Assembly: GCA_036002485.1 (NCBI GenBank)
Contig: DASYTI010000014.1
Location: forward strand, 1-48,364
Length of the DNA stretch: 48,364 bases
Source: Candidatus Methylomirabilota bacterium
GTDB lineage: Bacteria; Methylomirabilota; Methylomirabilia; Rokubacteriales; CSP1-6
Direction of reading: 5' to 3'
The position numbers and the translations under genes are program-made. The notes beneath the pieces were generated by a model, which saw only the letters and a list, made by a program, of their open reading frames with translations, had not been told where the DNA came from and searched no databases. Positions 368 to 12,100 of this stretch are shown in pieces. The first letter of the stretch is position 1; each line of letters opens with the position of its first letter.

Positions 368-1954
368 TCACTCCACGATTCTGCGCGTCACCGACCGCGT
401 GGCGCCAAAGGTCGGGATGAAGGCCGAGTGCTTGCCCGCGCCGCCCGCCACGATGACCATGATGTCCCGCCAGTCGCGGGCGATTCGCAGCAACGCATCG
501 GAAGACCTGTCCGTGAAGCCCTCCGGGTATATCGCCTCGAAGCGCGTGAGGTTCTCGGAGGTGAAGCGTCCTCGCGGCACGCCGGCCGCTTCCCACACGG
601 CCCGTCTGAAGTCGTCCTTCTTCCAGCCCGTGGACGCCACGGTCGCCGCGTGCTCGGGCCCCAGGACAATCAGCGGCTCGCCGCCCAGATAGATGTTGTT
701 GGATCCCGTGGTCGCCGCGGTGCCCACCACGGTGGCCACGATCCCCTCGGGCGTGACGGTGCCATGATCGTTGATATTGTGGGGCGCCTCCGATCCGCAC
801 ACGGTCACCGTGCTGTCATCGGGGGAGAAGCCGCGCTCGACCGAGAGCGGTTCCCATGGCGAGGCCGCCTCGTTCTCGCCGACGCAGTAGGCGTACTTGC
901 CCGGGTGCCCGTGGGTCGCCCGGTCCTCCTTGCCGGGGCGCGCGCCGCCCACGTTCTGGAGCGTCAGCCTCACCGCCCGACCGATGGCGGCATTGGCCCG
1001 CGCGCCCTGTCCGAGGGCATTGCCCGCGGCATTGATCCCGAGCCGACGCATGATGGGACCATTGACGATGAGGAGGGGCGAGCAGGGATGGGTCGTGGTC
1101 TGAACGGCCTGCAGATTGAAAGACGGGTCCGCCAGGGCTTCGAGCGCCGCCAGGATCACCGGCATGTGCTCAGGCAGCGCTCCCGCCATGACGGCATTGG
1201 CCGCGACGGCTTCCATGGTCGCCCTCCCGAGCCTCGGCACGAGAACGGCCACCACCTCATCGGGCTTGCGTCGCGTCAGGGCGAGCATCCGCTTCACGCG
1301 CTCCGCCGTGGGCGGAATGGCGGGCAGGCCATCGCCCCATCCCCGCTCCATCAGCCAGCTCTGAAACTCATCGAGATCAGAGGGCGCCCCATGGATGCCG
1401 TCAGGGCCGGCGCCCGCCGCCGCGGTGGCGAGTGGCGGAGAGGTCAGCGCGCGAAGAACGCTCGGGGCCACGGGCTCCGCCTTGGCCGCGGCCGCGCCCG
1501 GTAAGATGCCGCCTATGGGATGCGGCACCGTGACCACGGGAAGCTCCGGCAGCCCTCGCGCCGCGGACTGAGCCCGAGCCAGCGGAAGGAATTCATCGGT
1601 GCCCACCACGACGCAGGCCACGCCCCTCGCCTCCAGCTCCGCGGCGTCGTGGACACTCCACGACGTGCACGACCCTCAGTCGGCCGAGGCCGTGAGGGCG
1701 ACGCGCGAGCTGCTCGCGATCTCCTCGAGGACGGAAGTCGCGGCGCTGATCGATGAGCCGGGCTTGCTCCACACGCGCACGGCGCGGGCGCCACCCTGGG
1801 CGGCGAGCAGCGCGCCCAGGCGCTCGAGCAAGACCCTCGCATTGGGCTTCGAATTGTCGAGCAGCGCGATGGTCACGCCTTCGAGCGAGCCCGGGCGCAC
1901 GGCCAGGTTCCGCGCGGTGGCGGCGGAGGAGCCGGCGGGATCGACGATGTCCAT
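368..1954 (-). CDS. UGSC-family selenoprotein (in-frame UGA read as selenocysteine)
   Basis: Conventional reading gives two pieces, a 92-residue frame (1676-1954) and a 417-residue frame (368-1621). They lie in the same frame and are separated only by TGA at 1676-1678. Reading that TGA as selenocysteine gives one 528-residue protein with ..TASAD-U-GSC-TSWSVHD.., the Sec-Gly-Ser-Cys signature of the UGSC family (U93, C96). The N-terminal ~110 residues look like a small alpha/beta redox domain. The rest is a long conserved domain of unknown function with its own cysteines (..THPCSP.., ..AYCVGE.., ..VTVCGSE..). A SECIS-like hairpin follows the UGA at once. The ATG at 1954 has only a weak ribosome site, 6 bp after a short upstream reading frame. 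The substrate is unknown; a thiol/selenol redox or reductase role is inferred from the UxxC motif. Confidence 0.88.
1645..1678 (-). promoter_or_regulatory. bacterial SECIS element of the UGSC selenoprotein
   Basis: On the minus-strand transcript UGA (1678-1676) is followed by 10 nt, then CGUCGUGG (1665-1658), loop AGUGU (1657-1653) and CCACGACG (1652-1645). That is a perfect 8 bp stem, extendable to 9 bp by closing A-U. The loop carries the GU expected for SelB binding. The G lies 19 nt after the UGA, within the spacing usual for bacterial SECIS elements. The hairpin is inside the coding sequence, as bacterial SelB requires. Confidence 0.82.
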
Positions 1955-1960
1955 GTCAGG

Positions 1961-2089
1961 TCACCATGACGGGCGACGGTAGAGCCCTGTCTCACGGGTG
2001 AAGGCGGCCGGGAAGCTACCGATCATGTCCAGCATCTTGCCCATGATCACGGGCATGAGCAAGCTCTCCGCGACGCGGAAGGTATTGAC
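1961..2089 (-). pseudogene. possible C-terminal remnant of an unidentified gene upstream of the selenoprotein
   Basis: In a frame different from the MFS gene, codons from 2089 to TGA 1963-1961 read like a natural protein end (VNTFRVAESLLMPVIMGKML.. then ..GSFPAAFTRETGLY..). It stops 6 bp before the selenoprotein start, as a preceding operon gene would. The frame further upstream is arginine/serine-rich shadow. It may be the tail of a gene whose 5' part was replaced when the MFS gene's 3' end was joined here, or it may be chance. I do not recognise the family. Confidence 0.3.
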
Positions 2090-3239
2090 GGCCAGGCAGA
2101 AGGGCGATGAGGGCCGCGCTCGCGCAGACGAAGGCCGCGGCGTCGAACGTGAAGCGGAAGGCGGGCAGAAAGCCGAGGGTCGCCGAGCGCGCGCCAAAGA
2201 GCCACGCGGCGCTCTGCACACCGATCACCACGCCGAGGGTACGGGAAAGAAAAGCAAAGCCGCCGGCCGCCCCCTGCTGGCGCGCCGGGAATGCGGCCAT
2301 GGCCTGCGCGATGTTCGGTACCTGAAAGACGCCGAGGCCGAAGCCCACGAGAGCAAGCGCCGCGCCCACCAGCGGGAGCGGAGTGGTGGCGCCACAGCGC
2401 GCGACCATCGCGAGGCCGGCCGCCTCGACGATCAGGCCCAGGACCATGGGCCCGCGCCGCCCCCAGCCATCGGTGGCGCGCCCACTCACGGGCGCCGCCA
2501 CGGCCGTGGCGAGCGGGGTCAACATGAAGAGAAGTCCCCCCACCGCGGGCGAGACTCCGCGCTCGGTCACGAGATAGAACGGCGCCAGGAGCCAGACCGC
2601 GAACTGGGCGAAGTTGGCGAGAAAGGCCAGCAGGCCCGCGTGGATGACGGGCCAGCGGAAGATGTCAGCGGGGGCGACCATCCGCCACGTCGCCGCCGAG
2701 GCGCGGCGAGGCTCGCGTGTCCACGCGGCGAGGGCGACGATGGCCGCCGCGACGGGCACGCGATAAAGAAAGACGCCCTTCCAGCCGAACGCATCGACGA
2801 GAAAGCCTCCGATGAGCGGGCTCACGCCGAGGCCCAAGCCCAGACCGAAGCTTGCCCAGCCCAGCCCCCAGCCGTGTCGCGAGGAGGGCAGGGCCAGCGT
2901 CACCAGCGCCGGCGCGGCGCCGTAAATGAGCCCCCCGCTCACGCCCTGGAGCACGCGGACGACGAGGAGCACCCCGAAGGAAGGCACGATGGCGAAGCCG
3001 AGGAAGGAGAGGAGGGACAGGAGCAAGCCCGCGCGCACGACGCGCCCGGCCCCGAGCCGGTCGGCGAGCACGCCGGCGGCGAAGGCCGTCACCGAATACG
3101 TCCCGACATAGCAGATGATGACCCAGCGGATGGTGGTGGGGCCGACCTCGAAGGCGGCCGCCATGGCGGGAAACGCGATGTTGAGGGAGCCGTCGAGCCC
3201 GACGAGCAGAAAGCCTGCCGCGGCCAGGAGGACGGGCAT
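2016..3239 (-). CDS. MFS transporter (drug/solute efflux type)
   Basis: A 407-residue polytopic membrane protein with about 12 hydrophobic segments. ATG 3239 is chosen because the first helix starts at once (MPVLLAAAGFLLVGLDGSLN); the frame is open further upstream but not protein-like. A loop 2-3 motif of the family is visible (GVLADRLGAGRVVRAG, with a second copy GRATDGWGRRGP after the central loop). It probably exports small organic molecules by proton antiport; the substrate cannot be told. The last ~23 residues (QYLPRRGELAHARDHG..) are hydrophilic and overlap, in another frame, a better-looking protein tail, so the natural C-terminus may have been lost by a rearrangement near 2090. Confidence 0.85.
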   Translation of the reverse strand: MPVLLAAAGFLLVGLDGSLNIAFPAMAAAFEVGPTTIRWVIICYVGTYSVTAFAAGVLADRLGAGRVVRAGLLLSLLSFLGFAIVPSFGVLLVVRVLQGVSGGLIYGAAPALVTLALPSSRHGWGLGWASFGLGLGLGVSPLIGGFLVDAFGWKGVFLYRVPVAAAIVALAAWTREPRRASAATWRMVAPADIFRWPVIHAGLLAFLANFAQFAVWLLAPFYLVTERGVSPAVGGLLFMLTPLATAVAAPVSGRATDGWGRRGPMVLGLIVEAAGLAMVARCGATTPLPLVGAALALVGFGLGVFQVPNIAQAMAAFPARQQGAAGGFAFLSRTLGVVIGVQSAAWLFGARSATLGFLPAFRFTFDAAAFVCASAALIALLPGRQYLPRRGELAHARDHGQDAGHDR

Positions 3240-3379
3240 GCGACCGAGTATACGGTTGCCGCCGGCGCCGCGTTGCCAGAGTCGAGATGCTCCCGCGCAG
3301 GGAAATGCTACGATGGGACGATTTGCATCGGACAGACCTTCACCGCTGGCATGACGACCATCCGAAAGGGGATCGGCCA

Positions 3380-4132
3380 ATGCGTCAAATCTGGTTCCTC
3401 GCATTACTCGCGGGTCTTGTTTTCGTTGTCGCTACCCCGGGGGCGGCCGAGCTCGTACCTCTGGGGACGCTCCGGGCCATGGATCCGAAAGACTCCGCGG
3501 CCGTGACCGTCGAGTGCGAGAAGAGCGCCGACGGCAGCCAGATGACGTGCGGATTCGTCCACGTGAAAGTGTCTCGGGTGAAGACCCCGGAAGCGGCGCG
3601 GGCTGAGCTCGAGAAAAACCTCAAGCAGCAGCCGCTCGAGGCAACCACCAAGGCGGTGTGCGGCAACGAAAAGGAATTCACCACCCAGTACAGGGACCTG
3701 GCCGCCTCCCCCCGCGTGGGCGAGAACCAGAAGGCCTTCATGACCCAGACCATGCAGCGCATGAGGACCTTCTGCGCCAAGCCTTCCCTGCAGAGCCTTC
3801 GAGAGTTCAGCTGGTTCATGCTGAGCAAGGACACGAGGACCTGTAAGCTCCGGACCAGCTCGTGGCGGGAGACCTTCATCCAGAACGCCTCTCGCGTGTG
3901 GGTGAGCAATCGCGGACCCGCCGGAGCCTGCGGGGTCATCAGCGTGTCGACTCTGGAAGAGAGACCGATGGATCCGAATGCCAAGAGCAAGGCGGCCTCC
4001 TGGATCTACGAGGCACAGAAGATCCTGACCACGAAGACGGGCGCCTGCAATCAGGCCGACGATGAAGGCAAGGTTCGCTATTCCATCAGTGGCCTCAACC
4101 CAACCTTCGGGTGTGAGTTCATGGAGTTCTGA
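3380..4132 (+). CDS. secreted cysteine-containing protein of unknown function
   Basis: A 250-residue protein. The ATG at 3380 precedes a clear signal peptide (MRQIWFLALLAGLVFVVA..PGAAE), so the mature protein is exported. The mature part has about eight cysteines (..VTVECEKS.., ..MTCGFVH.., ..TKAVCGN.., ..TFCAKP.., ..TRTCKLR.., ..GACGVIS.., ..GACNQ.., ..FGCEF..), consistent with periplasmic disulfides. No catalytic motif or known domain is recognised. It is divergent from the MFS gene, with 140 bp between them. Confidence 0.7.
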   Translation: MRQIWFLALLAGLVFVVATPGAAELVPLGTLRAMDPKDSAAVTVECEKSADGSQMTCGFVHVKVSRVKTPEAARAELEKNLKQQPLEATTKAVCGNEKEFTTQYRDLAASPRVGENQKAFMTQTMQRMRTFCAKPSLQSLREFSWFMLSKDTRTCKLRTSSWRETFIQNASRVWVSNRGPAGACGVISVSTLEERPMDPNAKSKAASWIYEAQKILTTKTGACNQADDEGKVRYSISGLNPTFGCEFMEF

Positions 4133-7694: not shown

Positions 7695-7927
7695 GCAGGC
7701 TGCTCAAAAGGGTCCAGATGCGAGGCGGCGCCCCGCAGTTCGAGTTGAGCGGCGGCCCTTGGCCGACGTGAGACGAGGGCTGAGTGGGTTCGAGTTGAGT
7801 GGCGGCGGTCTCTGGCCGTCGCGAGACGAGGGCTGGGTTGATTCGCAGGTGAGGCGTACTCTCTGTACGTTGAACCTGCGGTCGAGGGCGCCGCACTCCC
7901 GCAGATGGGCCCTTTTCAGCAGCCTGC
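7695..7927. repeat. Dispersed element with terminal inverted repeats, copy B
   Basis: About 233 bp with ends GCAGGCTGCTCAAAAGGG and the complement of GCAGGCTGCTGAAAAGGG. The core CAGTTCGAGTTGAGCGGCGG (from 7735) is followed by a second, tandem core copy (GGTTCGAGTTGAGTGGCGG, from about 7787). It also shares with copy A the internal palindrome CGCAGGT..ACCTGCG and the block GTCGAGGGCGCCG. Its right end is 12 bp upstream of the hydrolase start, just before the ribosome site AGGAGG, so it is part of that gene's leader. A partial end (CGGCTCAAAAAGTC) precedes it at 7681. Confidence 0.75.
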
Positions 7928-11888: not shown

Positions 11889-11969
11889 GACCCCCTCACC
11901 CCGGCCCTCTCCTCTGAGGGGAGAGGGAGACTTTCTGGAACCCTCGCCCCCGTCGAGGGGGAGAGGGCC
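11889..11969. repeat. two intergenic GGGGAGAGGG palindromes
   Basis: Two imperfect hairpin units in tandem: CCCTCTCCTCTGAGGGGAGAGGG (about 11910-11931) and CCCCCGTCGAGGGGGAGAGGG (to 11969). They belong to a family found at least ten times in this window, always between genes. They follow the MaoC stop and precede repeat copy C. Confidence 0.7.
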
Positions 11970-11991
11970 GCAGTTCGAGCCGAGGCGCTCC

Positions 11992-12100
11992 CCGCTGTTC
12001 GAGCTGAGCGGCGGCCCCTGGCCGACGCGAGACGAGGGCTGAATGAATCCCGTAGGTGAGGAGAGCGACGAGGTGAGGGCTGAGACAGGTGAGGGGGCCA
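11992..12100 (+). repeat. dispersed repeat copy C, overlapping a gene start
   Basis: Contains CCGCTGTTCGAGCTGAGCGG followed by GCGAGACGAGGGCTGAAT, matching the core of copies A and B. It continues with GAGGAGAGCGACGAGGTGAGG, which resembles copy D but not A or B. It lacks the outer inverted repeats. The ATG of the CoA-transferase (12043) lies inside it, so the repeat supplies the leader and the first dozen or so codons. Confidence 0.6.

Follow-up and report, generated by a model that had tools for sequence, protein, structure and literature searches.

The selenoproteins of glycine, sarcosine and betaine reductase (GrdB, GrdF and GrdH; PF07355), together with PrdB of D-proline reductase, are, beside the UGSC family, the closest known systems to the protein considered here. 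Glycine and D-proline reductases are believed to act through a Sec selenolate that attacks the substrate, after which a thiol cleaves the carbon-selenium bond (PMC10298544). The UGSC family itself was described in 2008 by Zhang and Gladyshev, who reported Sec and Cys forms, suggested a thioredoxin (Trx)-like fold and gave no function; UGSC proteins were among the commonest selenoproteins of aquatic metagenomes, and that paper already reports their fusion to a conserved domain, 'Unknown_1' (PMC2398784). A 2026 review lists UGSC without an assigned function (PMC13188914). The literature searched contained no statement of a UGSC-GrdB relation, which does not in itself prove novelty. The protein described below shares with the 2008 family the U-G-S-C motif, the domain architecture, the occurrence of Sec and Cys forms and the fusion to a conserved domain. 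The family and its fusion were therefore known; what is added is the homology to GrdB, the association across phyla with a near-universal partner gene, the codon signature of the SECIS loop and the copy number of 2-12 per genome.

The gene lies in a 48,364-nt stretch of DNA from a Candidatus Methylomirabilota bacterium, referred to here as the window. An earlier note on this DNA held that standard gene calling would report genes of 92 aa and 417 aa, and that the two belong to one continuous 528-aa frame in which UGA is the U of U-G-S-C. Both points were borne out. The standard-caller genes are found at 1676-1954 and 368-1621, and the minus-strand frame from 1954 to 368 has one internal TGA (1676-1678) before its terminal TGA and is otherwise open (Table 1). 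The syntenic same-genus orthologue (L079:5548-7134, genome G002) carries UGA at the same residue with zero indels relative to the window gene, and gene order shows the same pairing with an MFS transporter. Between the two genes dN/dS is ~0.36 before the UGA and ~0.22 after it; coding is conserved on both sides of the in-frame UGA, as in a selenoprotein gene. AlphaFold predicts the whole fused protein with a pLDDT of 95.9. We are highly confident that the gene specifies one polypeptide in which a Sec-decoded UGSC domain is fused to a partner domain, a confidence that covers the fused, Sec-decoded protein and sets its reaction apart.

Table 1. Positions, in window coordinates, of the UGSC gene, its parts and its neighbour.
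Feature	Position	Strand	Basis or remark
528-aa UGSC-family selenoprotein gene (predicted), fused form	368..1954	-	ATG 1952-1954, in-frame UGA 1676-1678, stop 368-370
UGA codon, predicted to be read as Sec93, U of U-G-S-C	1676..1678	-	TGA (75) or TGC (4) in homologues
Cys96, second half of U-x-x-C pair	1667..1669	-	Nearly invariant in alignment (A5)
UGSC domain (PF24696)	1442..1951	-	Pfam 158.9 bits; alpha/beta three-layer fold predicted; homologous to GrdB C-terminal Sec domain by profile comparison
SECIS hairpin of bacterial type (stem of 8 bp, loop AGUGU)	1645..1665	-	Loop codon bias, pair count against null, fold
C-terminal partner domain, ~343 aa	371..1399	-	Without Pfam or NCBIfam family
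MFS transporter gene adjoining UGSC gene	2016..3404	-	PF07690; same neighbour in G002 (L079)

Family membership is clear. The protein has the U/C-G-S-C family motif in the form UGSC and matches PF24696 over residues 2-171 (cut-off 25 bits), and its match to NF041046, at 125 bits, falls exactly on the cut-off of 125. Cys at the aligned UGA site had been sought as a check on the Sec assignment, and it was found: among 80 public-genome loci, retrieved by the C-terminal domain, 75 have TGA at the site and 4 have TGC, one of these Cys forms belonging to the haloarchaeon Natrialba asiatica. The proposal of Sec insertion gains support from the family match, the Sec/Cys exchange, selection on the SECIS loop and conservation of the frame after the UGA; from these we infer that Sec is inserted in the cell.

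All six UGSC copies in the source genome carry TGA. In the family to which it belongs (f1, genomes G000-G056) there are 2-12 UGSC genes per genome, with one in-frame TGA in every listed copy (~150), and the highest count, 12, occurs in a congener of the source genome. This is a large paralogous selenoprotein expansion. Six copies here and up to 12 in the congener suggest that these are related enzymes acting on different substrates. A divergent paralogue with the motif U-G-[SA]-C-T-P-A-V occurs at L097:7559-8995, L122:342-1955 and L129:184-1506, either joined to a divergent C-domain or next to one, and with the stem and GU loop placed differently. Two further TGA-bearing homologues (L133:3366-3869 and L164:3245-3745) read U-G-S-S and show no GU loop in the normal position.

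Profile comparison shows homology between the UGSC domain and the catalytic C-terminal part of selenoprotein B of glycine reductase. The evidence can be summarised as (i) weak matches of the UGSC stretch to the NCBIfam GrdF, GrdB and GrdH models; (ii) an hhalign alignment of UGSC with a GrdB profile built from proteins of related genomes, at Prob 94.7 and a score of 58.9, with reversed, column-shuffled and unrelated controls scoring 11-20 (at most 19.9); (iii) a score of 40.1 when the eight motif columns are masked; and (iv) continuation of the match ~80-90 residues past the motif. Sec is aligned on Sec, and the same correspondence of C-terminal domains holds for GrdF, GrdH and PrdB. The U-x-x-C-x-x-C arrangement of GrdB is also found in some UGSC copies (L052, L053). 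The N-terminal part of GrdB is missing from UGSC, which has the partner domain as its companion. PF07355 gave no match to the window protein at E up to 1 and no GrdB match in the source genome, and no homologue of GrdE or GrdA was found in that draft assembly at E up to 0.001. Because GrdA, GrdE and GrdB matches are absent from the source genome, we place the window protein outside the glycine reductase complex: it is a relative of the GrdB catalytic domain and not a part of glycine reductase. Related genomes also hold GrdB-like genes with an in-frame TGA (L165-L175; UGT[SC]xRCG and related motifs), in some cases along with GrdA and GrdE.

A different reading accepts Sec insertion and takes the protein, as was supposed in 2008, for a conventional oxidoreductase of the thiol type that resembles thioredoxins or peroxidases; its likeness to GrdB would then be confined to a shared placement of Sec at the start of a helix. 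The U-x-x-C pair is that of Trx-type selenoproteins, a Trx-like fold is what was suggested in 2008 (PMC2398784), and some UGSC clusters contain pyridine-nucleotide-disulphide oxidoreductase genes. A shared Sec placement would not be expected to give a match that extends so far beyond the motif and survives its masking. Structure comparison of the predicted UGSC domain lists Rossmann, receiver and periplasmic-binding folds, a list that leaves room for other families; no Trx or GrdB structure stands out among the folds listed, and a PDB sequence search with the UGSC profile returned no significant relative. We regard the thiol-type reading as rather doubtful, and prefer kinship with the GrdB catalytic domain.

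The C-terminal 343 residues of the window protein match no family in Pfam or NCBIfam. In relatives this partner domain is either fused to UGSC or encoded by a separate gene, mostly directly beside it. At 75 of the 80 loci UGSC lies within 800 bp of the partner domain or is fused to it, and UGSC comes first at 71 of these 75 (median gap 76 nt); of the five exceptions, three start at a contig edge or close to one. The partner domain is likely the 'Unknown_1' of Zhang and Gladyshev (PMC2398784). AlphaFold models it with a pLDDT of 94.0 alone and 95.9 within the fusion. Comparison of the model with PDB structures (Foldseek, VIA-align) gave no clear fold match, and a PDB sequence search with the C-domain profile gave no significant relative. 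A class I fumarase or cyclic amide hydrolase-type fold was considered and rejected as too weak (Foldseek E 6e-4, TM 0.25, VIA Z <=6). A nearly invariant Cys of the partner domain is Ala in the window copy, and this residue was for that reason set aside as a redox partner there. No C-domain was found when it was sought near GrdB genes. Together, the tie to GrdB and the near-constant partner domain, to which neither Pfam nor NCBIfam assigns a family, turn an uncharacterised family into a testable two-component enzyme.

We propose the following model. The UGA would be decoded as Sec93 by SelB and tRNA-Sec, directed by the hairpin just downstream, giving a UGSC domain fused to a partner subunit that is elsewhere encoded by a neighbouring gene. 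The substrate would be held between the two domains, the partner domain presumably binding it. Homology to GrdB points to Sec93 as the most likely nucleophile, which would attack as a selenolate in the reductive cleavage of a bond. This would leave behind a Sec93-Cys96 selenenylsulfide, with Cys96 as the resolving residue, to be re-reduced by a putative thiol or flavoprotein donor. Genes for flavin-containing pyridine-nucleotide-disulphide oxidoreductases lie in the same cluster as UGSC in several Alphaproteobacteria (with a CASC motif in L158), and offer a lead to the electron donor. TctC/Bug genes near UGSC at 37 loci were set aside, such genes being numerous in Betaproteobacteria. The 'selenol/thiol chemistry' expected in the earlier note becomes more specific through the GrdB homology, but the reaction itself is deduced: reductive cleavage, which follows by analogy from homology to one GrdB domain, has about an even chance of being correct. 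More tentatively, UGSC and its partner might make up a widespread class of their own among reductive selenoenzymes, akin to the glycine and proline reductases, in which Sec as nucleophile cleaves a carbon-heteroatom bond without a pyruvoyl subunit. The same tentative proposal would have this class expanded in Rokubacteria-type bacteria, where a genome may hold as many as a dozen copies, and present also in Proteobacteria, Chloroflexota and haloarchaea.

The hairpin that would direct Sec insertion is present as first noticed, 10 nt past the UGA. From the UGA the order is UGA-GGGUCGUGCA-CGUCGUGG-AGUGU-CCACGACG, with GGGUCGUGCA as the spacer; the stem has eight perfect pairs, or nine if an A-U pair closes the loop. 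Folding gave a divided result: the 22-nt hairpin is better than 200 of 200 dinucleotide shuffles (z -4.6), but the longer 39-nt stretch is not outstanding against such shuffles (z -1.3). Under the constraints of protein sequence and codon usage, an 8/8 stem alone has a probability of ~0.08, and such a stem at such spacing occurs at 2 of the 1227 TGA triplets of the window. Taken by itself the single hairpin is suggestive, and its significance comes from comparison. Among 75 distinct TGA forms, pooled from public-genome loci and copies in related genomes, mean stem pairing is 6.83 of 8, where a codon-aware null gives 4.99 +/- 0.15, and several of the stem pairs show compensatory changes. At the loop codon 63 forms have AGT and none AGC, where codon usage of the genomes concerned predicts AGT in 17% of AGT/AGC cases, and 7 forms have TGT and none TGC (binomial p 5e-49, a value that ignores the relatedness of the sequences). 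Where a Cys form has CGSC complete, this codon is AGC or TGC. The pattern indicates a selectively maintained SECIS loop and supports Sec insertion. A Cys form from a Candidatus Binatia MAG (L124:138-644) keeps 7 of the 8 stem pairs with AGC at the loop codon, a state that would fit a recent replacement of Sec. Rfam gave chance matches only over 1500-2000, the hairpin fitting none of its families.

A genome lacking selB and tRNA-Sec had been named beforehand as grounds for rejecting Sec insertion. The source assembly was searched, a draft of 4.45 Mb in 253 contigs rated 95.7% complete, and selA, selB and selC (tRNA-Sec) were not found; taken literally the draft is such a genome, and we read the absence as a gap. 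The search for sel genes did recover selD: two SelD genes pass the cut-off, one with TGA at the Sec motif AGUASK. SelB passes the cut-off in 85 of 99 related genomes and tRNA-Sec in 18 of 21. In the same-genus genome G001 a selC-selA-selB cluster sits between ileS and a block matching contig C193 of the source assembly, which begins ~2.2 kb short of the position of the relatives' selC. On the ileS side gene order differs from that of relatives and synteny is broken. No full-length EF-Tu is among the assembly matches listed, only short fragments at contig ends.

These observations also bear on the reading that Sec decoding has been lost, with the UGA a true stop, the 92-aa product a fragment and the downstream frame silent. 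The missing genes in a nearly complete assembly would fit such decay, and the broken synteny near ileS leaves gene loss some small probability. Decay would not be expected to leave six UGSC genes and SelD with intact frames through UGA, or the low dN/dS after the UGA; the place of the sel cluster, judged from relatives, is immediately off the start of C193, and EF-Tu is likewise unlisted at full length. We consider loss very improbable. The absence of selA, selB and selC is best explained as an assembly gap, because a UGA-bearing SelD is retained along with six UGSC genes that also bear UGA, and the counterpart of the relatives' neighbouring DNA starts at a contig end. Reading of the UGA as Trp, Cys or Gly by a suppressor tRNA or under an altered genetic code, with SelB playing no part, would suit a draft in which no selB was found, but is scarcely credible given that the terminal codon of the window gene is also UGA, the SECIS loop is under selection, relatives possess SelB and tRNA-Sec, and homologues have Cys at the UGA site.

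Repeats also occur in the window. A dispersed intergenic repeat of ~100-150 nt is found at 124-269, 7695-7893 and 11954-12051, with 88-92% identity between the best copies and the core GTACGTTGAACCTGCGG in two of them. C-rich CCCCTCACCCTGCCCTCTCCCC repeats lie in both orientations at 11893, 18044, 20107, 20252, 20313, 29535, 38046 and 44402.
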